Part shown: one piece after another, positions 5,581 to 53,718 of the stretch
Numbering within the stretch: position 1 is the first letter of the stretch
Layout: the number at the start of each line of letters is the position of its first letter
DNA from: Mortierella sp. BCC40632
Lineage: Eukaryota; Mortierellomycota; Mortierellomycetes; Mortierellales; Mortierellaceae
Assembly (NCBI GenBank): GCA_011634665.1
Contig: WAEK01000035.1
Span: forward strand, 15,001-68,718
Direction of reading: 5' to 3'
Length of the DNA stretch: 53,718 nt
Translations under genes and position numbers: made by a program
The notes under the pieces: generated by a model
The model's database searches: none
The model's input: only the letters and a program-made list of their open reading frames with translations
What the model was told of the DNA's origin: nothing

Positions 5581-5692
5581 AGTATCACCTTTAAGAAGCA
5601 TACTGTCGTATGCGAAGTATACTTGTGGGATTGGATGAGCCTGCGATAGCAGGCGACATCTAATCCCATGTGTACGAAGCATACAAAGGTAT
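5577..5692. repeat. DIRS internal complementary region, copy 1 (left part)
   Basis: The sequence downstream of the recombinase reads as the reverse complement of the element's own ends: first the left end (AAGCATACTGTCGTATGCGA), then the right end (GGATGAGCCTGCGATAGCAG). This internal complementary region is a hallmark of DIRS elements. The gypsy element inserted within it after GGTAT, and the rest continues at 11735. Confidence 0.85.
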
Positions 5693-11734: not shown

Positions 11735-11993
11735 GCTGAGTAAAGGTGCCCACCCACCCTCCGCAAAAAAAAAAAAAAAAAAAAAAAAAACAAGCAATCA
11801 AACGACCAAAGAGGAAAGGAGTGACACAGAAAAAAAAAATTTATTTATAAAAAAAAAAAAAAAAAAAAATCTATAGTACTTGCTAGCAATCAAATAAAGA
11901 CGGCCGTATCACCTTTACTCAGCATACCTTTGTATGCTTCGTACACATGGGATTAGATGTCGCCTGCTATCGCAGGCTCATCCAATCCCACAA
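11735..11993. repeat. DIRS copy 1 right terminal region
   Basis: This is the remainder of the internal complementary region plus the right inverted terminal repeat. It includes the A-tract pair (11765-11790 and 11849-11868), the TAGTACTTGCTAGCAATC segment shared in inverted form with the left end, and the outer sequence ending CCAATCCCACAA. Confidence 0.8.
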
Positions 11994-12213
11994 TTATATT
12001 TATTCTACTTTTTATTAGAGGACCTTTCAGTACGACGTTATGTGTGACACAGCAGTTCACGCGTTGCATTTGATCATACTGGCCTACCCAGTCAATGCCT
12101 TGGAGAGAACCACATAATCATTCTGAGCCATGAGGGATGTGTCTGGGAGATTGATAGTCTGGATGAGCAGGGTCCATATTTTCTGGGCAAAGCTGAACAA
12201 GACTGGGCCTATG

Positions 12214-33288: not shown

Positions 33289-33491
33289 GGATGAAGATAT
33301 TCTCACATGTATACTTCGCATACGACAGTATGCTTCTTAAAGGTGATACGGCCGTCTTTATTTGATTGCTAGCAAGTACTATATTTTTTTTTTTTTTTTT
33401 ATAAATAAATTTTTTTTTTCTCTGTGTCACTCCTTTCCTCTTTGGCCGTTTTTCTTGCTTGCTGGTGATTACCGCTTCAAAATTTCCCAAA

Positions 33492-37207: not shown

Positions 37208-37563
37208 AGTATCACCTTTAAGAAGCATACTGTCGTATGCGAAGTATACTTGTGGGATTGGATGAGCCTGCGATAGCAGGCGACATCTAATCCCATGTGT
37301 ACGAAGCATACAAAGGTATGCTGAGTAAAGGTGCCCACCCACCCTCCAAAAAAAAAAAAAAAAAACAAACAATCAAACGACCAAAAAGGAAAGGAGTGAC
37401 ACAGAGAAAAAAATTTATTTATAAAAAAAAAAAAAAAAAAATCTATAGTACTTGCTAGCAATCAAATAAAGACGGCCGTATCACCTTTACTCAGCATACC
37501 TTTTATGCTTTTACACATGGGATTAGATGTCGCCTGCTATCGCAGGCTCATCCAATCCCACAA

Positions 37564-37843
37564 ATATGTGAGCGGCTTATTCTCAGTCATATGTGAGAAT
37601 AGCTCTCAAACTCTTTTTTTTCTTAATCTCACATATGTGTGAGACGCTTATTCTCACACATATCTCCTGAAAAAGGCCTCCAGCTTACTCTCACACATAT
37701 CTCAACGTTCTGCTCTCACATTTATCTACAGTCCCAGCTTTTTTTTCTTCCTTTTTTACAGGCCCCGTTAGGGGTTTTATTCATTTGTGCGCACCCGTCC
37801 CATGTTTTCCAGACGTGGCTATCTAGTCCTCAATCCACCAAGG
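37564..37843. repeat. Left terminal inverted repeat (inner part) of the large transposon
   Basis: This segment is inverted relative to 53030-53310. It contains several copies of a CTCACACATATGTGAG-like palindrome and its halves, which are candidate transposase-binding sites. Its outer 20 bases (33289-33308) lie on the other side of the DIRS insertion. Confidence 0.85.
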
Positions 37844-39080
37844 AAAAAAAAAAAAAAAAGTAAGAGAATAGGTGGAAGGCGATCCAGAGAAGAGGAAAAA
37901 GACCAGGGTACAATGAGCACCCGCAGAGGGGCAAGTCAAAGGCAGGGACTACAACTAGGGGCAGAGGTCCCAGCTTTTTCAGCCACTCAATACGACTGTT
38001 ATGTCATCGGTCTATGATGCCGATTTGACACATCGTCAATTGTGCTTCCCTTTTTTTCTTACTCTTTTCGCCACTACTCAAAATCCTAGCACTCCTCGGT
38101 CGTCCTTTTGGTCTTCACTCTTCTTGGATCGCCGACGGTAGGGAGTCTCACCATCGTTTTGCACAGCTGCTTCACTTTCCATATCCTTTTCCAGAGATCC
38201 CTGAATTTCCTCCATCTTGCTCAAAATCTTCCCATGCATAAGTGGATCGTTGCTCGAAAGACCTGCGATCTTCTTTCCGAGTCCTGTTATTTCTGTGTGC
38301 CGTCTCTTCCTAGATTGGGTCTCCTTGTGATAAGCGACAGATTTTTGTCGGAGGAGAACAGGTCAGAAACACTGGTCATGAAAGAATCCGAGGGATACCC
38401 CATTCTGGTTGACTTGTGGTGCCGAGAAGCGGCCTGGAAAGACTTTGCGTCCAATCCTCTCACTAAGATCGGGGATGTCTTGGATGGATTCCTTATACCA
38501 GCGGCGGTGCACTAAACTGATGTGATATCGGCACTCTGGCTCTTTCCTCATGACGCAGAAAAAATGGCGGCAAACGACTCCCAAAATTTTGGAGGAGTAG
38601 ACAAGTGCAGAAGTACGAGTGATCGGTCAGAAGTATGACGTATTCCTTCTGTTCGCAGCCCAACGTGTCCTTTGCCCTGAAAACGAAACGCGTATCGTCT
38701 TGACCGATCCTAGAGATCAGAGAAACGAGAGTTGATATACGCCCCGATTCATCCTATTACACGAGACGAGGCAATATTAATATCCTCTTCCTAAAAGTGT
38801 GTGTTGGATAGGATACTTGCCGAGTCACTGTCTGGGGGTAGAGCTCCAAGAGCTCCTGTAGACTCTTGAGACGCGCAGAAAACCCAAATGATGAGTCCAT
38901 CTCCCGCCTCATTTTGGCCTTAGCAAACGAACCCAAAAGATCCTCATTGGATTGTAGTACTTGCTTGAACGCCTTTTTCTGACATGGTCGGCTCTAAAGT
39001 CCTGGAACTTGCCTCTCTTCTGGCTGCCTCACCTTCAGGACAGCTATTGAATTTTGCCTCAAAAAGTTCCTTCTCTATCT
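37844..39080. other. Subterminal region of the large transposon
   Basis: No gene is convincing here. The first 130 bases (to about 37970) match 51942-52180 (shared AGAGCACCCGCAGAGG.GGCAAGTCAA). A 135-codon plus-strand ORF (38108-38515) has no recognisable domain. The minus strand near 38900-39080 continues the transposase reading frame with stops, so a degraded transposase C-terminus may reach into it. Confidence 0.4.
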
Positions 39081-41215
39081 TCACACCCCTGTAGCTTTAA
39101 GGACCCTTGTTAAAGAGGAACCACCATTGAGATTCAGCATTTTAAGAAGATGGTGCGACTTCTCTACTCGTTGAGTGGATTGCATCCCAGCTGTGAACTG
39201 AGTGCGCACCCATGGCCAAGCCCATCGAAAACGGTTCGAATACAAACGATCAAGATAGTTGAGGACGATGGGGTTTTGTTGATATTTCTCGCACAGCTTC
39301 TGCCACTTGGCCTCGAATTCTCTGGAAATCAAAGAGCGGGTGACATCTTGAAAGCGGAGTGAGAATTCATCCCAATCTTTCCCAAGGGCTTTGAAAAAGG
39401 CGTAGCCTAATGTTCTTGTTTGCGTGCCACCGGCAATTGACTATAGTTGTATCAGGGAGAAAGGTTGTACTGACAATGTTCATTGCTGGATCTTTATCCA
39501 GCATGAGGGTCTTTGGGGGCTTATTTTCATTCAGCTCTAGCAGTTGCGAAAAGGACCCATTCGTAATCTGAGGTCTCTTCGCCAGAGGTAAGGGCACAGG
39601 CTACCAGTCTTGTCCGAAAATTGTTGTCAACTACAACGAAGCAATGGAGCGGCATACCGAATCGATTGGTGGATGCAGTTGTGTCGTGGACGACAACGTC
39701 ATGATACCTCCTGTATAAATCCTGTTGCGCCGGGCACATCCAAAAGACAGCCTGGAGACGACCGGCCACAATCCTGTTCCTGGAGAGCCATTGGCCTGGG
39801 ATTTCTCCAAGCAAGTTGAACAACTGGGCAGCATCAGAAATGGTGTTAGACGATGCACGTTGTTTCGAGATATAGTTGGCTATTTTTTCTGGTCGAACAA
39901 GTACTTGGATTTCGTAAAAGAGGCGCTTCGGGTTATCTGAAGCATCTCTATCGTTTTACCAGTTCCCCAACCCATTTCTGCAGCCTGTCTGATTAAATTG
40001 AGGTCATACTCTGTAAGAGGCTCAAATTCTGGACGAGGTTTTCCAAGGGCGTGGTTGTGCAAAACAGAGATGCTGGAAATACGCCATCGTGGCTTGATAG
40101 ACTTTGGGCTGTTAAGGTATACAGCGTATTTGCAGCCACAGCGGACTGAAATACTTCCTGGCCGCTGCTTGGATGGATCAAAACCTTTTTGAGGTGTGTG
40201 TGCCCTGGCGAGTGCAAACGATTAACCCTTTGGAAAAAAAAAAAAAAAAAAAGGCTCCTAAGTCTCCCGTTGTGCCAACGCCCTCTTTGATATCGACATA
40301 ACACAAAGTTGACAACAACTCACTTACCAGTCGGATAAGTAGCATTTTTCGAAGAAGAGTTGGCCCTCGTTCGGAAACCATTGCGGCAGGCATAGTCGAG
40401 CATCATGGACTTGGCCTCCTCGAAATCCGAGAATTGATCATCGACTGCGGGGCTCCATCCAACAGCATCCACGTGCTCTCCTAGAAAAGGAAAGCGTACA
40501 AATTTAGCACAACTCGTAGGCTAGTCTCAAGTGCAACAACTGCTAGATTCAATAGCGCACGCACCATAGCTCTGACACTCCGTGTTGTCCCTGTTGTCAT
40601 GACCACTTGCAGATGAGGCCTCGCCTCTGAGGCCTTCTAGATCTTCTGATGTATCCGACTCATTGGGGCAGAGAGAAACAGCGTCGTCCTCATCACTTTC
40701 GTTCTTTGTGGAACTATTGTCACTCTCGCTGCTGCTTGAAGATGAGGTACAACTCTCAGGACAATCAGGGCTGTTCGATCTATCGCCGTCGGACTTTTTC
40801 TTGCCAATTGTTCGGATACCCTCGTCTGGGCCTCTAGTCTTTTCCAGCTCTTCGACACTTGGCTCCTTTTCGCTCTCGTTAAGCTCCCTACTGCCAGTAG
40901 CAAAGCTTTTCGTGTCTACAATGATTTCTTCCAAACTCTCATAGTCGAAGTTGTCATCGGAGCTGGCCAAGTTGTTGTAATGATCAATGTAGTCGTCTGA
41001 ATCCCTATCCACATCCGTGTAATCACTCTCGTCAGTTATAGGGCTCAGCTCTCTGCTTTTTGGATACTTTGCTTCTTTCTGGCCCTCGCAAAGAACTGTA
41101 TTGGCTGACTTTTCCTAAGTCCTTGAGATACTTCTTGAACTTCTTGTCCAAATTAATGACCTTCGGATTGTTCCCTTTCTCCTTCCAAAAGTGCTTTACG
41201 ACATCGTCTTCCGTG
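39081..41215 (-). pseudogene. MULE/FAR1-type transposase gene with frameshifts
   Basis: On the minus strand an acidic Ser/Glu/Asp-rich N-terminus (about 40530-41200) precedes a FAR1-like DNA-binding segment (SMMLDYACRNGFRTRANS, near 40390), an intron with a T-run (about 40188-40329), and a Cys-containing continuation. The MULE DDE domain follows: HDTTASTNRFGMPLHCFVV carries the first Asp, LMLDKDPAM the second, and CRWHANKN is the usual Cys/His segment; a Glu-rich helix and VEKSHHLLKM lie near the end. MULE transposases cut and join the element ends. Frame changes near 39545 and 39390 and at the C-terminus break the ORF. It is probably the mobilising enzyme of the surrounding inverted-repeat element. 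It is on the same strand as, and directly downstream of, the Fanzor gene. Confidence 0.75.
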
Positions 41216-41272
41216 ACCTAAACGTAGATGGATACAACTTAGATACTGGATACTGGTGTTCCTTTTACTAGC

Positions 41273-43844
41273 CTAGTTTGCCCTGCGTACCGCAGGGATC
41301 CCCATTGCATCTCTAACTGATGTTGGAGGCATAGTAAGTTGAGCTATCTCCTGTGAATATGAACAGGTATGTTTGGTGGGACGGATTGTCCTTGTAAATG
41401 GCTCCAGTGTATGTCTCTCCAGTGAGAGTAGAGTCGACCCTCCTGCTATCGCAATACAAACGGCTGCGTTCACATCCCGGGACTTGATCGTATGTCCTCG
41501 CTGGACTGACCCGCACTGGCTGTTCGTACACTCCATTGCTCCATTCACCTGAACCATCTTCTCCTTGCCATCCACAATCCGACGCGACCGTGCCTTCCTC
41601 AATTGACCAAAACACTCGGCACACGTCTGGCTCGTCCTGAATTCATCAGTAAGTCCAACCACTCCGTACCGCATATGCTGCTCTCTCATCTTTCCTCCTC
41701 CCCGTCTAGCGTGCCCTCCAATTCTGCTTCCTACTCCCGTTCCTCCCGACCCCACCAGCATCACTGGGATGAGTGATGGACCATTCTTGCGACACCGAGC
41801 CAGGTGCTGGTAGTTACCCCAGGTACACGCTATATGGTGCCGTTGGCAACCACCACACCATCCATCTGACGGGGATACCTCTAGAACATTAAAAAGAAGA
41901 AGACTCAGTAAAAAAAAAAAAAAAAAAAAAAAAAGGACATTTTGTTCTGCTCAACTGTACCTGATGGGCTCTCTGACCCAAACGTTTCCAATGCGTGATT
42001 CTTCACATACTCCCTCTCTGCTGCCGCCACCTTCCCCACACCCTTCTTGTGCGAAGTCGCTGGTTGTGCAGATCCTTCAACCTTGCCTTTGATTTCTCAA
42101 ATCCTTCAATGCTTTGCGTGACTCTCGATGCAGCTCATGCGCCCTGTCAATCTCCTCCATCGTCTGTGCTGTCTTCAAAACTTGTTCCTTGTCTGAGAGC
42201 TTCTCCAGTGCTTCGCGTACATCACTATTCTCCGGTCTCTTAAGTCGCATCTCTCGCCTCTTGGCTACCCGTCGCATCCCTGAAGCTTCATTGAGCTGAG
42301 GTGCCGTGATCTTGAATGGACGACTCTGGGGTGTCCATTGTTCTCTAGAGGCAGTTGCCTCTCCTGATGACTCCTCATCCGGAGGCGGTGGCCATGGCTC
42401 AGGATTAGAGCTCCCAAAGGTTTCCTCCGCATCCTCTTCTGTGCCTATTCATCATTAAAAAAAGCTATTAGATGCGCTGAGCTTGACAGATGACCGACAT
42501 TATTCCTTACATCTTGCCCATTCAACTTACCATAAAGTACAGCATATCGGTTGATATGCGTCTTGATCTCGCCCAGGGTCTGTGCACATGTTACACTCAT
42601 CGTTCGAATCCCTGGATCTGTCCCCGCAAAGACAATTCTGTCCTCTGGCAACTTGGAAATATCGAGCCGCCTCGTTGAATCCTCGACTGTAAAATCCTTC
42701 ACAGTAGGGTGTGGTGTACTCCACCGCCTTTGAGCCATCCTTGCTCTTTGGGGTCTTTTTGTAACTACCCTGCGGAGCCCCATTCCAGTAACTCTTCTCT
42801 TTCCGCAGGCGTCGCAACTGACTCTCCTGTGGTGGTTACAGTTGCTCGAAGAGCTCGCACCTTTCTCCTTGCTTCTTGAAGAACGCGATATGTTTTTTGC
42901 TCACTCCCTCTTCCGTCCTCTACACTCTGAATATTGCCCTCATTCGTGTCTACGCCCCCGATGCCTTCCTTTTTTTGCCTTCTCATTCTCTTTTCTGACT
43001 GCTGTGCGGTGGTTCTTGGCTGTCAGGCTTTTGATCCGTCTCGAGCACCTTGAGTTCCTTTCGGCCTCGCTTGATTCTACTCTCAAGGTCTTTGATATTG
43101 CTCTCTACTCTCTTGATCTCTTCAGCAATTGTTTCCACTTCCATCTTTTGATACTCTATCTCTTTTGGTCCAGTCCATAGTATCAGTCCTGACCTTGGCC
43201 TTGACCCGCCTCTCGTAGTGGCTGAACAACGGGCGACCTCCACGCTCGGCTCCCCTGTGGAATCACTTCACCCAAAATCCGGACTGTGTACCTATCGACG
43301 AACATCATTCTGTCCGCAAATCTGAGGCCATGCTTGCGACACAGCCTTTGAACTTTCTCCAAGTCGAAGAATGCCCCAAAGACTGCGTCCTTGTGATGTG
43401 GGACTCTTTCTCCGGCTATTAGAGGAGTGCCTTCAGAGTTCTTGATATCAAAGTGGCCTGGCGTCTTGGCACACAACACCTCGTATAACCCCTTCGCTCC
43501 AAGAATCAATGCATGACTGGAAGAAGGTGATATCTGTGGTGACAAAAGCCGAGTGTGCTGAGGATACCCAGCCGCTCTTTGAATTGCGTTGGCAATGATG
43601 GCCATAGGTGCAAAGCAAAGTAGCGTGGGCCAGGGGGCGCCCTCGTTCCACCTTGGGGTCTCGTCTCTCGGCTAACTCGACGTTTTGCAACATAGGGTCG
43701 AAGTGCGTTGGCCAGCTTGGCTACAACACTGCATTGCTCCTCGGTGATATCCATTCCGCCGTGTGCTGACTTTCTGACCCAGTTGTTGTCGATTTCCTTC
43801 TCGATTCGGGGTGACTCTAGGAGCATACGAAGAAGTCTCCTCAA
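41273..43844 (-). CDS. Fanzor-type (eukaryotic TnpB) RNA-guided nuclease, C-terminal two thirds
   Basis: Fanzors are TnpB homologues that cut DNA using an RNA guide. RuvC-I is seen in [15 protein letters not shown] (Asp codon 42616-42618). After an intron (42445-42530) comes a helical Lys/Arg-rich region ([20 protein letters not shown]). An intron with a long T-run (41881-41960) precedes [11 protein letters not shown], then [11 protein letters not shown]. The Glu codon at about 41644 sits where Fanzors are reported to have a rearranged catalytic Glu. A zinc ribbon follows (Cys-x2-Cys near 41623-41614, Cys-x4-Cys near 41530-41515), then Ruv[18 protein letters not shown] (Asp about 41476). Upstream, [19 protein letters not shown] and [12 protein letters not shown] resemble Fanzor pre-RuvC sequence. 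Small frame changes near 43600, 43230, 42800 and 42080 are unresolved introns or indels. The stop is at 41273. Confidence 0.82.
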
Positions 43845-43890
43845 AAGACAATATGATCGCTCTTGTTGGCTCTTTTAGCGAGAGAATCCC

Positions 43891-46400
43891 CTAATTCGTT
43901 TCTAGTTCTTCCTCCATCTCATCGAGATCCCAGTCGTCGAAATCAGACCCTTCGAGATTGTCAGAGTCCTGATCTTTGACAGTTCTCCTTTGGGTCACAC
44001 CATTGTCCTTGTTGTTCACCTCAACCACCGGCTCTTTGACAAAATCTTCCTCCGGTTTTAATGTCCCATCGTCAAAATCAATCCCTTCAAGGTCGTCCGT
44101 ATTCGGGTCTTCGACGGCTCTCCTTAGGGGCTTGAATACTGGATTCACCGCCCGCCTCGACTGTCGGCTCTTTGACGGGGTCACCCTCCAGTTGGCTAAA
44201 ATCCCAGTCATCAAAATTGACCCCTCCGAAATTGTCCGTATCCAGATGTTCGAGTCGGACATCCAGTGGTTCAAAACATTCCGCCCCAGCGGTTTTGGGC
44301 TGTGTACTTGTGAGCCAGGATGTATTCAATCCTGTGCAGGACCGATTGAATCCGTTGCCCATCTCCGGTTGGGTCTTTGTCAAGAGCACGGTTGAGATCA
44401 TCGCAGAGCACCAGGATTGTCCGTTTCCATCTACTCTTGCCTACAGTTGCATTCTTGGGATGACTTTTTTTTTCTCGTGGCCTGACGACTTGAGTTTTTC
44501 TCTCTCTGCTTTCTTTCTCTCTCTCTGGAGCCAGATGGAGCCGCAATAGAAGCAAGAGAGTGTGATCGAGAAGCTTGTCATACATCTGGCCTCCCCAAAG
44601 GTTCTCGATGTTTGTAGCCATTTGCTTCAAGTGCTCACTAACAGTACTTGAACGGCCTCCAACATCTACTGAAAACTTTTGCTTTTGCCCGATACGAGGT
44701 TACCGACCACACTGCTCCAGACCTGTCGCCTGGCTTTGTTCGCTGCGTTAACTCCTTGAGCTCCGAAGAACCAAGAATACATGAACAGGAGAAAGCTATA
44801 CGACATTAGAGTTGTCGTGTCGCTCTTTCTCTCGGCTTCCAGGTGCTCTGGCAAAAGGTCAGGAAGGGGCCGCAACTGGGGAGCAAGGACAGGACAGTCT
44901 TGTCCCGAAACTCGAATCCCTGCCGGAAAGACCGACTGGATGTCAAAGGCCATCTTGGTAGATGGATTGATGTAGTGAGTCCCTGATGCGAAAAAAAAAA
45001 AAAAAGAGGGTGATATTCATTTGTCAGTAATAGAAAAAAAAAAAATAATAAAATAAAAAAAAAAAAAATGCAGAGCCATTACCTCATGAACCGCCTTCGT
45101 AGCCAGCACCGAGATTTCCTCACAAACCACCGTCATAGCCTCTTGACTTTTCTCTAGGAGAATTCGGATTCTCTCTTTGTCCTCTGTACAAAGATCAGGC
45201 CGAAGAACTTGCTGAAGTGTGGCTGTGCAGGATCGGAGCTGTCTCTGATCGGGTCCAGTCTCTTCCTCCATCTCGTAATCACCATCGCTGCCACCATCAT
45301 CGCCATCACCGTTTTTTCCGCTTCCTCTCCTACTACTACTACCCTTCTTCTCCTCCTCCACTTGTTCTAGCTGCCGCATCTTTTTATCGTTCGAGTCGGC
45401 GCGACCCCCTTCCCTTTAGACAGCTTTTTGGTCTTGGCCTCTTCTTCTGCCTCCCATAGTGACTGAAAGTTTGCTTCGAGGTAGCTGTTCCATTGGTTGA
45501 CGGTGCCGTCCTTCCCCAATTTTTGTCCATAGTAGTCCTAGAAAGATCTCGGGCGGCCACGTTGGAGGCTCTTATGGTATCGAAGGCGGACTTTTTGATG
45601 CATAGAGGAAGTCTCTTTGTTGCAATAAGAGACTGGTAGGCTTCCCCCTTTGTCTTTGCCCTTTAAGATGCTTCCTTTAATGCGGTTTTATGTAGTCATG
45701 CCTGCACAGTATCAAGTGGAGAAGCCATTAGATACACCATGCTTTATGAGGCTATTTCTGCTATCGAGTACTTGAAAAGTACATGTTTAAACATTTTACC
45801 TTGCTTTTTGAAGGCTTCCTGGATATCAGCGTCCGCAGGATCGTCTAACTTCCGTTTTTTAAAACCGCTATAGGTTCTTGGGCCTGTGCGGTAGACCGCC
45901 GGGGAGTAGCGGCTATGGTATGGCTGGGCTGGAGGTTCTCCTGGGGTATGTTGTTGGACCGAGTAGTTCTTGGATGGCACCAATGCCAAACACTCCCTCG
46001 TCCCAAGGTAGGAGTCAACGTGTTGAAGAATACCGATTGACATTGTCGAGTCTTCGCTCCTGAAGACCTTTGTCTTTTTCGGGTGGAGAAGACAAAAATG
46101 TCAACGTGTAGCTCTGATGACAATAGTCGGAAATGCAGGTTGCTGTGGGGTGGGATGTCAACTGATGTGTCTCCAATGGTAAGAGTGAATAGAGGGTTTC
46201 GAGATGCAGTGTTATTGAGAAGACTTTGCACGATCGATGTTGTCGCTGGTACCCGAGATGTTTCAAGTGGAGCCATGTCGACGACGATGCCCTGTCGGCA
46301 GAGTGTCTCCATCGTACTTGCCCCTGTTTTCCAATTGACAGTGGTCAAGGGACAGAGTACTCTCCAGTCTGGGTGCAAGAGCAGGGTCATGCCTCTCTAG
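43891..46400 (-). CDS. Minus-strand exons upstream of the Fanzor core (N-terminus of Fanzor or a separate cargo gene)
   Basis: Several open segments on the same strand look like exons. One is an N-terminal piece near 45845-46390. Next is a basic, Gln/Lys-rich piece ending in a GTAAAATG donor near 45800. An acidic linker (44995-45379) follows. A hydrophobic segment (MSYSFLLFMYSWFFGAQG, near 44780) begins a block of normal composition. Finally there is an acidic stretch (43891-44270) repeating a DNLEGSDFDDWDLDE-like motif. Introns at about 44990-45080 contain A/T runs. I could not resolve all junctions. They may encode the long N-terminus of the Fanzor, since Fanzor1 proteins can be large. A separate gene is also possible. 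Confidence 0.4.
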
Positions 46401-47454
46401 CATGCTCCTCCAGACTCTCAAGAGTCCTGCGCTGTGATCTCTCTTTGCAAAAAGAATAATTCAGTGTTGACTCCTAAAGAGCAAAACGATGTAGTAAATA
46501 TTTAGCAAAGATGTCAAGTTGAACTGTTGGGGTCCTTTTTTTTGTGCTTTTTTTTATTCTTTGCCCTACCATGATAAAAAAGAGGAAGAGAGAGCGTGTA
46601 TGTGTGTAGTAGTGTATGTGTATAGTGTGTAGTGTGTAGTGTGGGATGGGTGTGGATTGTGGATTGTGGAGTGTGGAGTGTGTGTGCAAGGAAAGAAAAA
46701 GGTCAAGTTCAAGCAGAGCTCTCTTCTCTCTCTTCTCTCATTGTTGAATCCTCTAGTGCGCTGCACTTTGCATCTTCTCACTTTTAATTTGTCGGTGCCA
46801 GAATGGCGCTGGGAAAATATGAATCATTTTTTTTCCTCACGCTTCAGGGGGGGACCATGCGCAGTGCACGGTCTTCAAACTGACATAATCATGAACTGTA
46901 TGGAGAGAGAAAGAGAAGAGGGGGAGAGAGAGAGAGAGCTTTTGAACACACATTCCTCAGACTTAAGCTGTTCGTTACGTAGTAGCTCTATTTTTTGCAT
47001 AGCTGTGGGCACGCAGGACCAAGCACTTGTATTCAAACTCCTGCCCTTGTTGAATTGAATATTTCTCAAATTGACCTCTTTTCTAAATGGTCCTTTTTCA
47101 AATCCTACTTTTCCTCGAAATAGTCCTTTTTTTCAAATCCTACTTTTCCTCGAAATAGTCCTTTTTTCTAAATAGTCCTTTTTCAAATACTACTTTTTTT
47201 CTAAATAGTCCTTTTTTTTCAAATCCCTTTTTCGAAAATAGTCCTTTTTTCAAAATCCTACTTTTTCGATATAGTCCTTTTTTCAAATACTACTTTTTCT
47301 AAATAGTCCCTTTTTCTGAAATAGTCCTTTTTTTTTTTTTTTGGGTCTTGGTCCGACCAAAGTGGATGAAATGAAAGAGAGAGAGAGAGAGAGAGAGAAT
47401 AGGGATGGACACCGTTTTTTCAGAAACCCTTTTTTTTTTTTTTTTTTTCAAACA
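46401..47454. other. Low-complexity region with short tandem repeats
   Basis: There is no gene. It contains a TG-rich run (46600-46685), GA-rich stretches (46900-46935, 47376-47398), a tandem array of a TAGTCCTTTTTTCAAATCC-like unit (47080-47335) and T-runs. Confidence 0.6.
47080..47335. repeat. Tandem array of a ~30-bp T-rich unit
   Basis: Eight or so imperfect units of the form (A)AATAGTCCTTTTTT plus CAAATCCTACTTTTTC. They vary in T-run length. Confidence 0.8.
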
Positions 47455-47745
47455 CCAAGTGTTTATTGATTAGCTTTTGCATCGACCCATTAGGGGCCAC
47501 CAATGTCTCAAGTTGCTTTTGTTGCAATGGGAAGGAGTGAGGAGAAAGACTGCCAAAAAGGTCAATAGGAAAGAGGTGACCAGGTGTCTCAACATGTGCC
47601 CTTTTTGAGTCTGTGTTTCACCAATTGGATTAGGTACTTTTCTTTTGAATCGCCTTCACCCCAGTACCTTGATTGCTAGCTCCTCTTTTATTCATGGCAC
47701 TCTTTTGAAGTTCCATCTCAGGTTTCTTCATGTTTCGGCTTAGTG
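47455..47745. repeat. Degenerate dispersed repeat, copy B
   Basis: This has collinear similarity to 13715-14010 (copy A), in the same orientation and again next to a minus-strand coding relic. Confidence 0.5.
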
Positions 47746-47994
47746 AGTGTCGCTGGTCGTCCTGGTCCGAGTGGCAGTCGCTAATGGCTTTGAATCGGCC
47801 TTGATCGTTCGCCCTTTGCTAGAGTCGTACCACCACACACCAGTGCCCGAGCAAACGCCTCTACTGCCTGCTTTTTTTGCCTGAGGGTCATTGATATCAA
47901 TTCCATGAAAGACACTGTACCTGTCATGTCCTACTACTGTACATGGTCGAGAAAGCATGCCGACGCATAGAGAAACAGTGCGAAGCGAGGGCAT
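47740..47994 (-). CDS. Short unknown ORF (84 aa), family member of the relic at 14010-14240
   Basis: The ORF has the motifs GRGVCSGTGVWWYDSSKGRT-like (as Gly-rich plus Trp-Trp-Tyr-Asp) and a Thr/Arg-rich tail. It is open from an ATG at 47994 to the stop at 47740. The 14010-14240 counterpart has stops. No known domain is recognised. It could be the last exon of a repeat-borne gene. Confidence 0.3.
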   Translation of the reverse strand: MPSLRTVSLCVGMLSRPCTVVGHDRYSVFHGIDINDPQAKKAGSRGVCSGTGVWWYDSSKGRTIKADSKPLATATRTRTTSDTH

Positions 47995-48820
47995 GGGGAT
48001 CCAAAGTTGGTTCTGAGTAATCGATTAGAGATGTTCGAGAGAACCCGACTACTGGTGAAAGGAGCCCCCCTTCGGGTCTGCGATACCTTTTTGGGATGTA
48101 TAAAGATTAAAAGGTCTACCCCACATGGAGTGAGAAAAATGATTACGATTGCAGCCGCTATTACAAATGTTCAGTCACCACCACCACCACCACTATTCAC
48201 ATTGCACATTGCACGGGTTTGCTAAAGTACCCTTCAGGATGGAAAAGAATAGAAGAAAGTTTCTTATTCCGGTTAATGGCCAATGACCGGTGCTCCGATC
48301 TTATACCTTTCACAGCACTGATCTTATGCCTTCATAGCGCCTTCTCATAGCGCCTTCTCATAGCACTCCGATCGTATGCCTTCGTAGCACGCACGTAGCA
48401 CATTACACGCAGGACACCTACGGCCGAATAAAGAAGGGCATGTTGTAGCACAGCAGAACAGGTAGCAAAAGAAGGGCAGGTAACAGCAGAGCAAAACCAG
48501 AAAAGGAAAAGGGGGATTTTCTATCAGGTGACGCGAAACTCAGATATTTCTTTTTTAGTATTTGTTAGATGCAAGCTGCATGGTTGGGGGTTTCACCTGA
48601 CTCTTGCCCAACACATGCGTTTCCCGGGTTGGTGAGAGAAAGCCCTGTTGGTCACTTAGTGCTAGAAAGATTAGACGCGTCCGCTAAAAAAAGTTTGATC
48701 TCTGCTCCCTACACCTTGCTCGTTTGCCACTCTCGTTTCTGTTCATGAGTGAGGCCCTGATTATGGGTCCTCTTAAACTACCGTCCACCACAAAACTTTG
48801 CTTTGTCTCAAAGACTATGC
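47995..48820. other. No recognisable gene; short repeats
   Basis: It contains short imperfect repeats of CATAGCGCCTTCT (48330-48390) and ACAGCAGA/GGGCAGGTA-like words. I see no supported coding region. Confidence 0.4.
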
Positions 48821-48825
48821 CAGTG

Positions 48826-50296
48826 AAGTACCAGAGAAGTTTATGGTTGCTCAGAGAAGTCTATGGTTGCTCAGAGAAGGAGGGTTGTTCAGGGTTGCTC
48901 AGAGAAGTATATGGTTGCTCAGAGAAGTCTATGGCGTTGCTCAGAGAAGGGGAGGTTGCCATATGGTTGCTCAGAGAAGGGGAGGGTTTTTCAGAGAAGG
49001 AAGAGAAGTGTATACATGGCTCCAGAGAAGTATGTGGTTTTTCAGAGAAATACTCAGAGAAGCTTAGAAGTTTATCAGAGGTGGTTGTTCAGAGAAGTGT
49101 TTTAAATGTCGTTCCAGAGAAGGGGAGGGTTGTTCAGAGAAGGGGAGGGCTGTTCAGAGAAGGGGAGGGTTGCTCAGAGAAGGGAGGGTTGCCAGAGAAG
49201 CGTATAGTTGCTCAGAAAGTATGTGGTTTTTCAGAGAAGTTTATGGTTTCAGAGAAGTCTATGGTTGCTCAGAGAAGGGGAGGGCTTGTTCAGAGAAGGG
49301 AGTGGTTGCTCAGAGAAGCATATATGGTTGTTCAGAGAAGTCTATGGTTGTCTTCAGAGAAGGAGGGAGAGAAGTTGGTTGCTCAGAGAAGGAGGGTTGT
49401 TCAGACAGCTCAGAATATAGTTGTTCAGAGAAGTATGTATTTTTCAGAGAAGCATATGGTTCCTCAGAGAAGTCTACTGGTTCAGAGAAGTATGGGTTCA
49501 GAGAAGTGTGTGGTTTTTCAGAGAAGATGGTTGTTCAGAGAAGGGAGGTTGTTCAGAGAAGTCTATGGTTGCTCAGAGAAGGGGGGTTGTTCAGAGAAGG
49601 GATGGTTGCTCAGAGAAGGTATAGTTGTTCAGAGGTGTGTTTCAGAGAAGTTTATGGTTGCTCAGAGAAGTCTATGGTTGCTCAGAGAAGGGGAGGGTTG
49701 TTCAGAGAAGGGAGGGTTGCTCAGAGAAGCATATCAGAGAAGGTTGTTCTCAGAGAAGGAGGGTTGTTCAGAGAGCGGGGAGGATTACTCAGAGAGAAGC
49801 TCAGAGAAGTGATATGGTTGTTCAGAGTTGTTCAGAGAAGTGTGGTTGTTCAGAGGGGAGGGTTGTTCAGAGAAGTCCAGGGTTGTTCAGAGAAGGAGGG
49901 TTGTTCAGAGAAGGAGGGTTGTTCAGAGAAGTGTATAGTTGCCGGGAGAAGTCACGTGGTTTTTCAGAGAGGGGATTGTTCAGAGAAGTCTATGGTTGCT
50001 CAGAGAAGGGGAGGGTTGTTCAGAGAAGTCTGGAGGTCGCTCTGAGAAGGGGGGTTGTTCAGAGAAGGAGAAAGTTTTTTCAGAGAAACAGAGACGATGC
50101 AAAGAAGTGGGCGTACAGCTTAGATAAAAGAGATGGGTAAAACAGGAGGAAGCGGGAAGCCAAAGAGAAGGAAATGGGAAGTATGTGGTATTTAAGAAAA
50201 ACATGGTTTCTCAGAAAGACATGGTTGTTTAGAGAAGTACATGTTTGTTCAGAGAAGTACATGGTTGTTCAGAGAAGTATATGGTTGTTCAGGAGA
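48826..50296. repeat. 1.47-kb minisatellite, TCAGAGAAG-based unit of 16-21 bp
   Basis: About 75 imperfect units each contain TCAGAGAAG. There are two main types: TCTATGGTTG(C/T) and GGGGAGGGTTG(C/T) between successive TCAGAGAAG words. Unit lengths vary and are not multiples of three, so long ORFs appear in all three plus-strand frames. They are a by-product of a unit that rarely forms stop codons. It is located inside the large transposon. Confidence 0.95.
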
Positions 50297-50489
50297 AGGA
50301 GACAAGGAAAACAGGATGTTCAAAAGAAGGGGCTGGGTGTAGATAGAGGAGCGGAACGAGAGAGACCAGCGTGAGAACCAAGATTTATACAAGGAGGTAA
50401 AAAGTTCAAGTGGTAAGTCTCTTTCTAGCTTACTCTCTTTTTCTTCTACACGCACTCACTCATTATTATTCTACCACGCATTTCACCCT

Positions 50490-50534
50490 CTCTCCCTCTC
50501 TCCCCTCTCCCTCTCTCTCTCTCTCTCTCTCTTT
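50490..50534. repeat. CT-rich microsatellite upstream of the cargo gene
   Basis: A tract of CTCTCC then (CT)n lies just before the first possible ATG of the coiled-coil gene. Pyrimidine tracts in this position are common in fungal core promoters. Confidence 0.6.
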
Positions 50535-50560
50535 TGATGCTTTCTCTGCCTCACCTCTTA

Positions 50561-51594
50561 TGCCAAAGCAGAACCTGACCAGTCAGAGAACTCTTCTGAG
50601 TAGCCAAGTCGCCCAGGAGCAGGGCGGTGAGGGACGATTCTGGCAACAGCGGAAGAAGAAAAGAAAAGACCAACGAGGGGTTGGTTGCACTTATTTCCAG
50701 TGTACCAAGGACTCTTGAAGAAGCGGCGATCGTGGATTCTCTGCACAGGATGAAGATCACCTTTTGCGATACCACCAAGATGTGCCCTCCGATTCCGCTG
50801 CAACAAAATAAAACAAGGACATCATTATCACACGAGACCCCACCGCCGAGATGCAGTACCGCTGCCTATGTATGACAACAATCAATTTGAGGTCATCAGT
50901 TAAACGACACTATGATAGCTGCGTGAGCTTGCACAGAAGGCGGCTGAAGAAATGACCAACAATCCTTCAACATTTATTGCTTGTCAGCCATCATCATCGC
51001 TCGAAGTAGCGGATTCAGACATGACACAGAGCATTTTCAACCAAACAATGGCCACCTACTACGAAAAATTTACCACCAAATTGTCTCAGCGAAGCGATAG
51101 GATTGAGCAACAACTCAGGAGCACTTCATTGGCCATCGTGTCCTCATAGACGAGTTTTCAAGAGTCACAAAGCAGCTGGTGCAGGCAGAAGAGCGTCAAT
51201 CCAAGAGACTAAGCGACTCTCTACACGTTAGAGAGAGACTGGATAGTCTTGACGATAGGTTGAGGGCGATCAATAACTATTTTGAAACCTCGACACCAGG
51301 TAATCTACAGATCACTTTTTGCTGCCATTGCAAGCCATCTCCTCATGATATCTATTCTAATATGCCTGATAAGTACGAGAGGTTCTTCACCTTGGAGTGA
51401 AATAGATCCATTGTCTCCCGAGCCAGAAATGGGGATATTTGTCAAGTCTTCTGAAACTGGTGAGTTTAAAGCACATGATTGGAAGTAAAAGACCCTGTTT
51501 GTGACACTTTCTAACATGAAAAATAGGTGATGATGATTCATCTCTAGACATCCAGCTAGTAAATAAAAATGAAGTTTCAGGAACTTGGTTGTAG
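50561..51594 (+). CDS. Cargo gene: small coiled-coil protein of unknown function
   Basis: I infer at least four exons. The first ends at GCTGCCTAT|GTATGACA near 50872. The next starts after GATAG near 50919 (LRELAQKAAEEMTNN) and runs to a donor at about 51299. The others are 51381-51461 and 51526-51594, with a textbook last intron (GTGAGT, CTAAC branch site, AATAG). Residues around LSQRSDRIEQQLRS and RQSKRLSDSLHVRERLDSLDDRL form a heptad-like coiled coil; the tail is acidic. One-base frame changes near 50650 and 51148 remain. No enzymatic motif is seen. Its position inside the inverted repeats makes it transposon cargo, perhaps a structural accessory. Confidence 0.5.
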
Positions 51595-51941
51595 ACTTCC
51601 AATGCCGTAATAGGATCTGTACAATCCCAATGTTTGAGCCGGCTCGAGTTTACAGAAGCAATCCTCTTTTTGAACTCTTTTTTTAAGTGGTCTCCTATAT
51701 CGTGTCACATGCACATGCTACCCCAGTCAAAAAAAGTCAGTATAAAATGAATGATCTTTCGTTACGACTGGAGAATAAGAATCTCGCAGCTGTTGGATCT
51801 CGGACCTTTGCCCTAGTTGTAAACCCTGTCCTTGACTGCCCCTGTGGGGTTTTGCTCTATCCCCCCTCTTCTCTGCATTTATTTTTTGTAGCTATTTAGT
51901 TCTGGGTCGCCTTCTTTTCTCTTACCTTTTTTTTTTTTTTT
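51595..51941. other. No recognisable gene
   Basis: A 70-codon ORF (51687-51899) lacks motifs. A T-run precedes the repeat starting at 51942. Confidence 0.35.
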
Positions 51942-52180
51942 AGCCCTGTTGGGGCTTTATTTGTCAGCGCGCCCGTCCCCGATCTGCAGGCGTAGCCAAC
52001 TGGTTCTCAAGACTAACCACAGAATAGAGAAGAAAGAAAAAGTGGAGGGGCGACTCACCCGATATAGCTACTAAAAATGCAAATGCAGAGAAGAGGGAAA
52101 AGACCAGAGTACAAAGAGCACCCGCAGAGGGGGGCAAGTCAAGGGCAGGATCTATAACTAGGACCAAAGGGGTACAGGGG
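51942..52180. repeat. Internal copy of the transposon subterminal sequence
   Basis: This is a direct-orientation, diverged match to 37756-37970 (left end): GCCCTGTTGGGGCTTTATT at the start and AGAGCACCCGCAGAGGGGGG near the end. The homologous sequence is therefore present three times in the element: left, internal and inverted at the right end. Confidence 0.65.
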
Positions 52181-53029
52181 TCCAGGAGGCGCGAGAGCGG
52201 CTCAATCAAGCAGGCCCGACCTTCAGCAACTTCAGCACGCCTGGATGTCGGGCGGCTTCGGTCTTGCGCGGGAGCTGGAGGAGCATATTCCTGGCATGTC
52301 TAAGAAAGCGGACCATAGACAGGGGTGGGCACATCCGACCAAATGTCACTTTCCTACTTGGACACCACAATGTACGGAGGGTGGTTCCAAGCCTCGTGCA
52401 TCCGCTTGTACTGGCGTCTGGTGTTGCTGCTGCTTTTGGATTCATTGATTGTTGTTTGTTATCCTTGAGTTTGGCTTGTTGGAGTGCTGTGTGCACGGAG
52501 GGCGAGGCTAGCCGGACTCAGAGCCAGAGGAGATCATCCGCCGAGCCGTCTCTTGGGTTGGCTCCGGAAGTGAAGCTTGTGGATGGCGACAAAGTCTTCC
52601 AAATGCCGTACAGGACCACTGAGTGTACTGCGATGAGGGGCAGGCTTTTGGCTTCTGGCCATCCCAGCATGCAGTTGTCAGGCAGACTGTTGACGATCAT
52701 GCCCAGGATGAGTGGCGATCCAAGAGCGGGCGGCCTTCTAGAGGGGCCCACCCACACTGCTCCGCAGTTGGCGAAGGGAGTGTCGTGGATCCTCTATGCG
52801 GGGCTCCTGCCCGGGGTGATCGATGAGACAGCTTTTGCACTTCTTATTGACGTCTTCGCTCCACGTAGTTCTGGCTTTTATCTGTTGAAAGACCTCTCTT
52901 TTGGTGACCTAAGGAGGCAGTGTGTGCGGATTGAATTGAACACTGTGTCCCACCACTTGTCAGGATAGGGGTCGTTGTTCTGCGCAGGAGACTTGAGCTC
53001 CAACCTACTTACCTTTTTTTTCCTTCCCT
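52181..53029 (-). pseudogene. Possible degraded retroelement coding sequence
   Basis: The stretch is relatively GC-rich and open on both strands in places (a 234-codon plus-strand ORF at 52264-52968; minus-strand ORFs at 52206-52496 and 52518-52757). The minus-strand phrases WWDTVFNSIRTHCLL and VVLYGIWKTLSPS resemble the C-terminal part of fungal LINE reverse-transcriptase ORFs from memory, but stops interrupt it. The plus-strand ORF has no recognisable domain. Assignment is tentative. Confidence 0.25.
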
Positions 53030-53330
53030 TTGGTGGATTGAGGACAGATAGCCACGTCTGGAAAACATGGGACGGTGCGCACAATGAATAAAAACCCCTA
53101 ACAGGGCCTGTAAAAAAGGAAGAAAAGAAAAGCTGGGACTCAGATAAATGTGAGAGCAGAACGTTGAGATATGTGTGAGAGTAAGCTGGAGGCCTTTTCA
53201 TGGAGATATGTGTGAGAATAAGCGTTCCTCACACATATGTGAGATTAAGGAAAAAAAAGTTTGAGAGCTATATTCTATGGATATGACTGAGAATAAGCCG
53301 CTCACATATAATGTGAGAATAGCTTTTTCC
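53030..53330. repeat. Right terminal inverted repeat of the large transposon
   Basis: This is the reverse complement of the left terminal repeat with a few indels. It contains the same CTCACACATATGTGAG palindrome. Outside it is a poly(T) tract (53331-53354), as at the left end. Confidence 0.88.
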
Positions 53331-53718
53331 TTTTTTTTTTTTTTTTTTTTTTTTAGCGAAGGGGGAGTGGGTATGTGTGTGGTGGAGGTTGGGATCATCC
53401 TTTTGGCTCAAAAGAGAAAAGACATGGATCAGCAAGGCCTGAGAGTTTTTTTTTTTTGGTTTATCATGGTCACCTCTGATGTGGTCGATTCCGAAGGGCA
53501 GGCGTGCAGACAAAGGCTTGAATCGCTGCCGCTAGGCTTATTTCGCCGACTAAGGCTTGCCGGACTAAGGCTTACTTGACCAGCTAAAACTATTCGGCTG
53601 GCTAAGGGCTTGTTCATCAGCTGGGCTTTATTTGACCTGCTAAGGCTTATTTTTGACCGCTAAGGCTTATTTGACCTGCTGGCGTTTGAGTCGATCTCGG
53701 GTTAAGGCTTATTTCGCT
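53331..53718. other. Right flank: poly(T) and a degenerate tandem repeat
   Basis: After the T-run comes unassigned sequence, then from about 53536 to the window end an imperfect tandem repeat of 20-25 bases with the word CTAAGGCTTATTTGACC. It probably continues beyond the window. Confidence 0.7.

Follow-up and report, generated by a model that had tools for sequence, protein, structure and literature searches.

A Fanzor-bearing, putative Helitron-type element nested in a MULE, in the place of a Ulp1-type protease gene, in Mortierella sp. BCC40632

The stretch of DNA analysed here (the window; 53,718 nucleotides of Mortierella sp. BCC40632, contig WAEK01000035.1, denoted C35:15001-68718) carries a gene for a Fanzor, a putative RNA-guided nuclease, beside a MULE transposase gene, and we read the locus, from its sequence, as two nested elements, namely a Fanzor-bearing and Helitron-ended element, designated F, inside a MULE. 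Our preferred explanation, to which we assign a probability of about 0.8, is that a Helitron-type Fanzor element entered the MULE and replaced a stretch containing a Ulp1-type protease gene, that the resulting composite transposes as a MULE, and that F also moves alone. A sequence-only reading of the same DNA had proposed a single Fanzor transposon with cargo, at 39081-46400; that interval coincides with neither element (F, 41268-48569; MULE, ~37565-53330), and the supposed single transposon is replaced here by F nested in the MULE at the place of Ulp1. The main features of the locus are as follows.

37565..53330, no strand assigned: outer element, MULE in its composite form, with ~300-bp terminal inverted repeats (from the repeat alignment and the ends in other copies)
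37565..37856, plus strand: MULE left terminal inverted repeat
53014..53330, minus strand: MULE right terminal inverted repeat
41268..48569, minus strand: inner element F, putatively a non-autonomous Helitron-type element carrying the Fanzor gene, 7.3 kb (from the boundaries of Fanzor-only copies and the ends)
48554..48569, minus strand: F 5' end, TCTAACAAATACTAAA, with host A before it
41268..41297, minus strand: F 3' end, hairpin CCCTGCG-GTA-CGCAGGG (41297-41281), then ...CTAG, with host T after it
41267..41268, no strand assigned: F/MULE junction at the F 3' end (CTAG/T, the slash marking the boundary); the Ulp1 region starts here in copies L029 and L030
48569..48570, no strand assigned: F/MULE junction at the F 5' end (A/TC)
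41268..46043, minus strand: predicted Fanzor gene, ~5 exons (approximately 46043-45800, 45701-45083, 44983-42531, 42447-41961 and 41880-41268)
42627-42601, minus strand: RuvC-I motif AGTDPGIRT
41462..41647, minus strand: rearranged RuvC-II glutamate (DEFRTS), C4 zinc ribbon and RuvC-III RD
38500..41217, minus strand: MULE transposase gene, approximate limits, frameshifted in the window copy; acidic N-terminus from 41217, FAR1-like part near 40185, MULE domain 39370-39955
near 38627-38595, minus strand: SWIM-like cysteine/histidine motif of the transposase (motif reading only, no Pfam match)
47062..47333, no strand assigned: minisatellite of 17-bp units inside F

Boundaries of the two elements and the missing protease gene

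The genome searched comprises 49.9 Mb in 62 contigs. DNA searches with the Fanzor part (42 matches listed, from 40 of 89 candidates that were scored, some rows being pieces of one copy), the transposase part (22 matches) and the 5' part of F (38 matches) place F at about 40 sites at least, most of which, among the matches listed, are without the MULE. In all ten Fanzor-only copies fetched (L019-L028), the match ends at window position 41267 with other sequence beyond, and 12 Fanzor-only rows of the 5' search start at query position 80-81 (11 rows) or 98 (one row), corresponding to the F 5' end. The MULE-only copies L029 and L030 match the window over 37559-41250 and resume from 48573, with 1.4 kb of unrelated sequence between. 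Because Fanzor-only and MULE-only copies break at these places, 41268-48569 is assigned to F and the remainder to the MULE. The inverted repeats of the latter (37564-37856 versus 53014-53309) are 92% identical over 302 columns, in agreement with the earlier placement of the Fanzor and transposase genes in one inverted-repeat element; the outer ~22 bp of the left end are missing from the window copy. The minisatellite attributed to that element is present, although as two separate arrays: the one in F (47062-47333) is expanded to differing lengths among copies, and the second (48832-50087) belongs to the MULE.

The 1.4-kb insert of L030 contains a Peptidase_C48 domain (4.5e-5, 23.8 bits, cut-off 20.7), in which the motifs HW, D, and QDDDFSCG are discernible by eye. 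Some plant MULEs carry a Ulp1-type protease gene; the MULE-only copies here likewise carry a C48 protease gene, whereas the composites have F there instead. DNA of the Ulp1-type gene occurs at 10 places and in no composite, and at each of the 10 it adjoins a transposase match that lacks F; one further transposase match (C61) has neither the Fanzor nor the Ulp1 gene beside it among the matches listed. At the site itself, L029 and L030 read AGCA/T...Ulp1...GGAAGA/T where the composites read AGCA/TC-F-CTAG/T. Composite counts refer to the eight copies outside C54-C56; all eight have their 3' junction read, and in seven the match also extends across the 5' junction, the match in C44b beginning too near the contig end to cover it. 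Three composites on C54-C56 that seemed old were set aside for their clustered errors. The corresponding rows L016, L017, and L018 (contigs C55, C54, and C56, respectively, ~22 kb each) have their differences clustered as in error-rich contigs, mimicking old copies, and are left out of the 18-copy comparisons of F given below.

Next to the 3' junction, all eight composites are set apart from both MULE-only copies by the same pair of substitutions and the same 7-bp difference, and one event thus probably founded all of them. The transposase part is 99.2-99.7% identical across the eight composites and the two MULE-only copies, which suggests that the union of F and the MULE is recent. As both outer bases of the replaced stretch fit the Helitron rule, the Helitron machinery may have made the Ulp1 deletion. 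The two junctions around the missing gene are read directly; the direction of the replacement, from the Ulp1 form to the Fanzor form, is what we infer from them.

The transposase lies on the same strand as the Fanzor gene, as previously noted, and its assignment as FAR1/MULE holds for the MULE half: the exon at 39530-39955 exceeds the Pfam MULE threshold (1e-7, 32.7 bits, cut-off 27.6), whereas FAR1 in the neighbouring exon stays below cut-off (0.0014). In L029 the MULE domain is clearer (8.7e-17, 61.8 bits), and FAR1 reaches 0.0057 in the long frame and, in a segment assembled across an intron, E 2e-5 (25.7 bits against a cut-off of 28.1).

Several repeats were also observed around the MULE. 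Window segments 1675-1829, 5582-5692, 11791-12001, 33301-33461, and 37209-37567 belong to a family of short repeats that have inverted repeats, and a member of this family occupies the expected outer left MULE end. About 1 kb of the right half of the MULE (51927-52990) recurs at 20 other loci with 76-80% identity, several of these relatives directly adjoining MULE ends (rows including L066, L068, L071, and L079). Some MULE copies sit in poly-A beside a common flank.

The Fanzor gene and its relatives

The Fanzor motifs named in the sequence-only reading were all located on the minus strand: DPG of RuvC-I, the 12-residue glutamate segment (41647-41612), the zinc ribbon, with its CTNSQC half at 41530-41513, and RDVNAA (41479-41462). 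All 18 copies outside C54-C56 have the DPG aspartate, and DYG replaces DPG in several Mortierellomycete relatives. The catalytic glutamate stands six residues ahead of the first zinc-finger cysteine (E-FRTSQT-C), in register with DEYKTSSVC of SpuFz, an arrangement given as a Fanzor criterion in the available part of PMC10711439. The ribbon reads CAEC...CTNSQC followed by RD, and the glutamate, the four cysteines, and RD are invariant in an alignment of 13 sequences. The closest named relatives are from Lunasporangiospora selenospora, Benniella, Mortierella, and other Mortierellomycetes, and relatives in other Mortierellomycetes retain the catalytic glutamate, the ribbon, and RD. For the structure, the full-length relative P0027 was modelled; its first matches are solved Fanzors, with a RuvC and zinc-ribbon fold, and long helices precede the RuvC part. 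From DPG, the rearranged glutamate, the zinc ribbon, RD, and the modelled fold of this relative, the window gene is placed among the Fanzors, as the earlier reading had expected. Further Fanzor relatives, with 37-46% identity to P0027 and open frames of 676-1103 aa, are found at C6:2918336, C7:516329, C6:2045482, and C12:877027.

The gene model is best supported from exon 3 onward; exons 1 and 2 and the start come from splice-site reading only. What had been taken for a coiled-coil cargo proves to be the N-terminal part of the Fanzor itself, since a single open exon of 844 aa in L027 holds both that stretch and the RuvC-I motif. At the other end, the stop codon TAG is formed by the final three bases of F in 15 of 18 copies (exceptions: the window copy, L013, and L014), and the 3' hairpin is therefore Fanzor coding sequence. 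The diverged 3' ends of L054, L059, L087, and L088 keep the same reading frame, as judged by eye. Folding of the F 3' end gives z -1.98, with 8 of 200 shuffles as stable, and Rfam has no match within 37500-53400. If the Fanzor acts as an RNA-guided nuclease, as we infer, its guide RNA would read across the F 3' end; in the composite such a putative guide would start TAAAAGGAACACCAGTATC, of which 18 of 19 bases match at the corresponding place in L029 and L030. It is conceivable, though in our judgement improbable, that the Fanzor thereby drives its own spread: guide-directed cleavage beside Ulp1 and repair from the composite would convert Ulp1 copies to Fanzor copies, with the Helitron terminus serving as both stop codon and guide-RNA scaffold.

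An alternative to the nuclease role is accidental nesting of decaying elements, with the Fanzor dead. This alternative, possible although we do not favour it, is compatible with the nested anatomy and denies only the last step, namely the Fanzor nuclease and its guide RNA. Small indels are present in all copies, those of the window copy breaking the frame relative to other copies, and nesting is common in this genome. The substitutions among the 18 copies look neutral, with synonymous to nonsynonymous counts of 10:20 for shared and 29:59 for singleton changes in the long exon, and 2:5 and 4:5, respectively, in the last exon. However, indels exceed substitutions in 15 of the 18 copies and equal them in two, the window copy having one indel fewer than substitutions; this excess fits assembly error as well as decay. 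The open 844-aa exon of L027, an open spliced C-terminal part of 497 aa in L021, and the motifs kept by relatives in other Mortierellomycetes also speak against a dead Fanzor.

Ends and movement of F and of the composite

The two ends of F are A/TCTAACAAATACTAAA and CCCTGCG-GTA-CGCAGGG-CAAACTAGGCTAG/T, the perfect 7-bp stem of the subterminal hairpin ending 13 nt from the terminus. The base preceding the 5' end is A in seven of seven distinct sites, and the first two bases of F are TC in six and TT in one; on the 3' side, 16 of 17 distinct flanks begin with T, counting as one the three variant forms of the MULE junction (L014, L017, and L018), and only L058, the end of which is altered, departs from this. 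No target duplication was seen by eye in four F copies with both flanks (L041/L024, L045/L020, L044/L026, and L047/L052). With up to three mismatches, the 3'-end pattern occurs at 69 genome sites and the 5'-end pattern at 22, the reversed-pattern controls giving 0 for both; these two counts are only roughly comparable, the patterns being unequal in length and in permitted variation. On its Helitron1-like ends (5'-TC, CTRR-3', hairpin, and A/T target), F is filed as a putative non-autonomous Helitron-type element. In addition, two F copies lie head to head, ~44 bp apart, in L048 (C17:5300-5520), where the 5'-end motif is repeated at 20-bp spacing, and L019 and L020 have 1.4 kb of 3' flank in common with differing 5' flanks (L048 and L045), possibly a read-through capture.

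Alternatively, F could be a mobile element of a separate Fanzor class, with a similar A/T target and an enzyme of another kind. F indeed encodes no RepHel domain (23 genome matches, none in F), and the search revealed no RepHel element sharing its hairpin, although the ends of such elements could not be read. We nevertheless consider this alternative improbable, because the Helitron1 features coincide in F and the excess of 3' over 5' ends, although rough, resembles that described for Chlamydomonas Fanzor Helitrons in the available part of PMC3627910. Under the Helitron-type reading, F, retaining its own ends, would move separately by rolling-circle transposition, with RepHel proteins encoded elsewhere in the genome probably acting in trans; the RepHel matches include open frames of 770 and 1071 aa with no stops in the match.

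F has a second host. The ortholog of P0027, a second Fanzor gene (P0027 has DYG in place of DPG), holds F in one intron at six loci, near P0027 residues 427-433 (rows L021, L022, L023, L031, L042, L043, L046, L049, L050, L051, and L053). The flanks read, six at the 5' and five at the 3' end, all agree, and F at this site thus looks like a single insertion multiplied with its host gene. TTTAA stands on both sides but includes the first bases of F, leaving it ambiguous as a target duplication. In a single case, L089, a copy of the second Fanzor gene without F has at the insertion point the sequence GGCTAG, identical to the terminal six bases of F and possibly a deletion footprint; the upstream part of this copy differs.

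As to the composite, F would have entered the MULE by replacing the stretch between two A/T sites that holds the Ulp1-type protease gene, and the product, keeping the transposase gene and the inverted repeats, would transpose as a MULE and carry the Fanzor along. Both ends were read in six composites, of which C3 has the 9-bp duplication CAGAACTTG, and C12 and both C19 composites have A9 duplications. As the composites are sited differently, most clearly where a 9-bp target duplication is seen, they appear to jump as a unit. The expectation that both genes would co-occur in further copies is confirmed. Both ends were also read in five of the 10 MULE-only copies: AGTGGTGCG (C7) and TTAGGATTT (C4) are non-repetitive 9-bp duplications, and the remaining three show T9 (C4), none (C2), and a right end that is cut (C11). 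At C19:500806-541086 (L011, L012, L060, and L067-L069), one composite is inserted in the F of another, beside the minisatellite. The composites in C35 (the window) and C44a are without the left end, and the window copy may be immobile, given its missing outer left end and frameshifted transposase. That Fanzor and MULE transposase form a co-evolved two-gene transposon dependent on both is very improbable: the genes lie on the same strand ~50 bp apart in the eight composites, which transpose as a unit, but most F places found are without the MULE, 10 MULE copies have Ulp1 instead, F has its own ends, and the union is recent.

A number of observations weigh against the nested, Helitron-type reading. 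The Fanzor fold rests on the model of P0027 and not of the window protein, the window exon matches Cas12f1-like_TNB at 14.5 bits (E 0.041), short of the cut-off of 26.3, although that match is not a defining Fanzor feature, and in the sequence-profile comparison SpuFz scores no better than E 0.093. The F site was read across in just two (L029 and L030) of the 10 MULE-only copies. Three of the four target duplications of composites, those of A9, lie in poly-A and are weak, and C35, C44a, and C44b have the same sequence in place of the left end, such that part of the composite copies may stem from duplicated segments. Finally, no RepHel-bearing element with the ends of F was found, the ends of the RepHel elements themselves being unread, and every site of the 3'-end pattern is more than 100 kb from any RepHel match on its contig.

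Relation to known Fanzor elements

Fanzor1 genes are reported from Helitron2-type elements and, in Mucoromycota, from MuDr-type elements without a transposase gene (PMC3627910, available part), and Fanzor cleavage has been discussed as a possible aid to the spread of single-stranded DNA transposons such as Helitrons (PMC10432273, available part). Like F, the Chlamydomonas CRe elements combine an intron-bearing Fanzor gene and a Helitron without RepHel with 3' ends in excess of 5' ends; they differ in being Helitron2, with two hairpins, asymmetric inverted repeats, and insertion after TTTT, whereas F has Helitron1 ends (TC...CTRR, A/T; only a 3' hairpin was looked for), and the part of PMC3627910 at hand makes no mention of CRe elements nested in MULEs. 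ROr-4, PBl-3, and MCi-4 of Rhizopus, Phycomyces, and Mucor, described in the same source, resemble the composite in having a Fanzor within MuDR-type repeats, 9-bp duplications, and an early-diverging fungal host. As far as that source goes, however, they encode no MuDR transposase, which the composite has (broken in the window copy), and, unlike in them, the Fanzor of the composite sits in its own nested element. The slime-mould Sola2-Fanzor chimeras, also in PMC3627910, are comparable as elements with one half in common and a differing Fanzor part, but belong to another superfamily, and no nested Helitron ends are described for them in the part available.

Among the solved Fanzors, SpuFz (8gkh), PpFz (9cf0), and GtFz (9cer) have the RuvC and zinc-ribbon fold with the rearranged glutamate, and show 9-20% identity to P0027 in the structural matches. 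The window Fanzor is predicted, from L027, to exceed 1000 aa, compared with 590-726 residues for the matched chains.

Neither a Fanzor Helitron nested in a MULE nor an element whose final base completes a stop codon is described in the available parts of PMC3627910, PMC10432273, and PMC10711439. Helitrons and MuDR-type elements are each known as carriers of Fanzors; the nested, protease-replacing form is a new variation on these. A Fanzor gene can, on this evidence, change vehicles, being found between its own Helitron ends, in a MULE in the place of a protease, and in the intron of another Fanzor gene, which offers a concrete route by which Fanzors could have come to be scattered over many classes of transposon. 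The overlap of the stop codon with the Helitron terminus constitutes a clear, testable constraint, and the Fanzor and Ulp1 forms of one MULE, present in 8-10 copies each with a near-identical transposase, provide a natural test of the effect of a Fanzor on the fate of its carrier.

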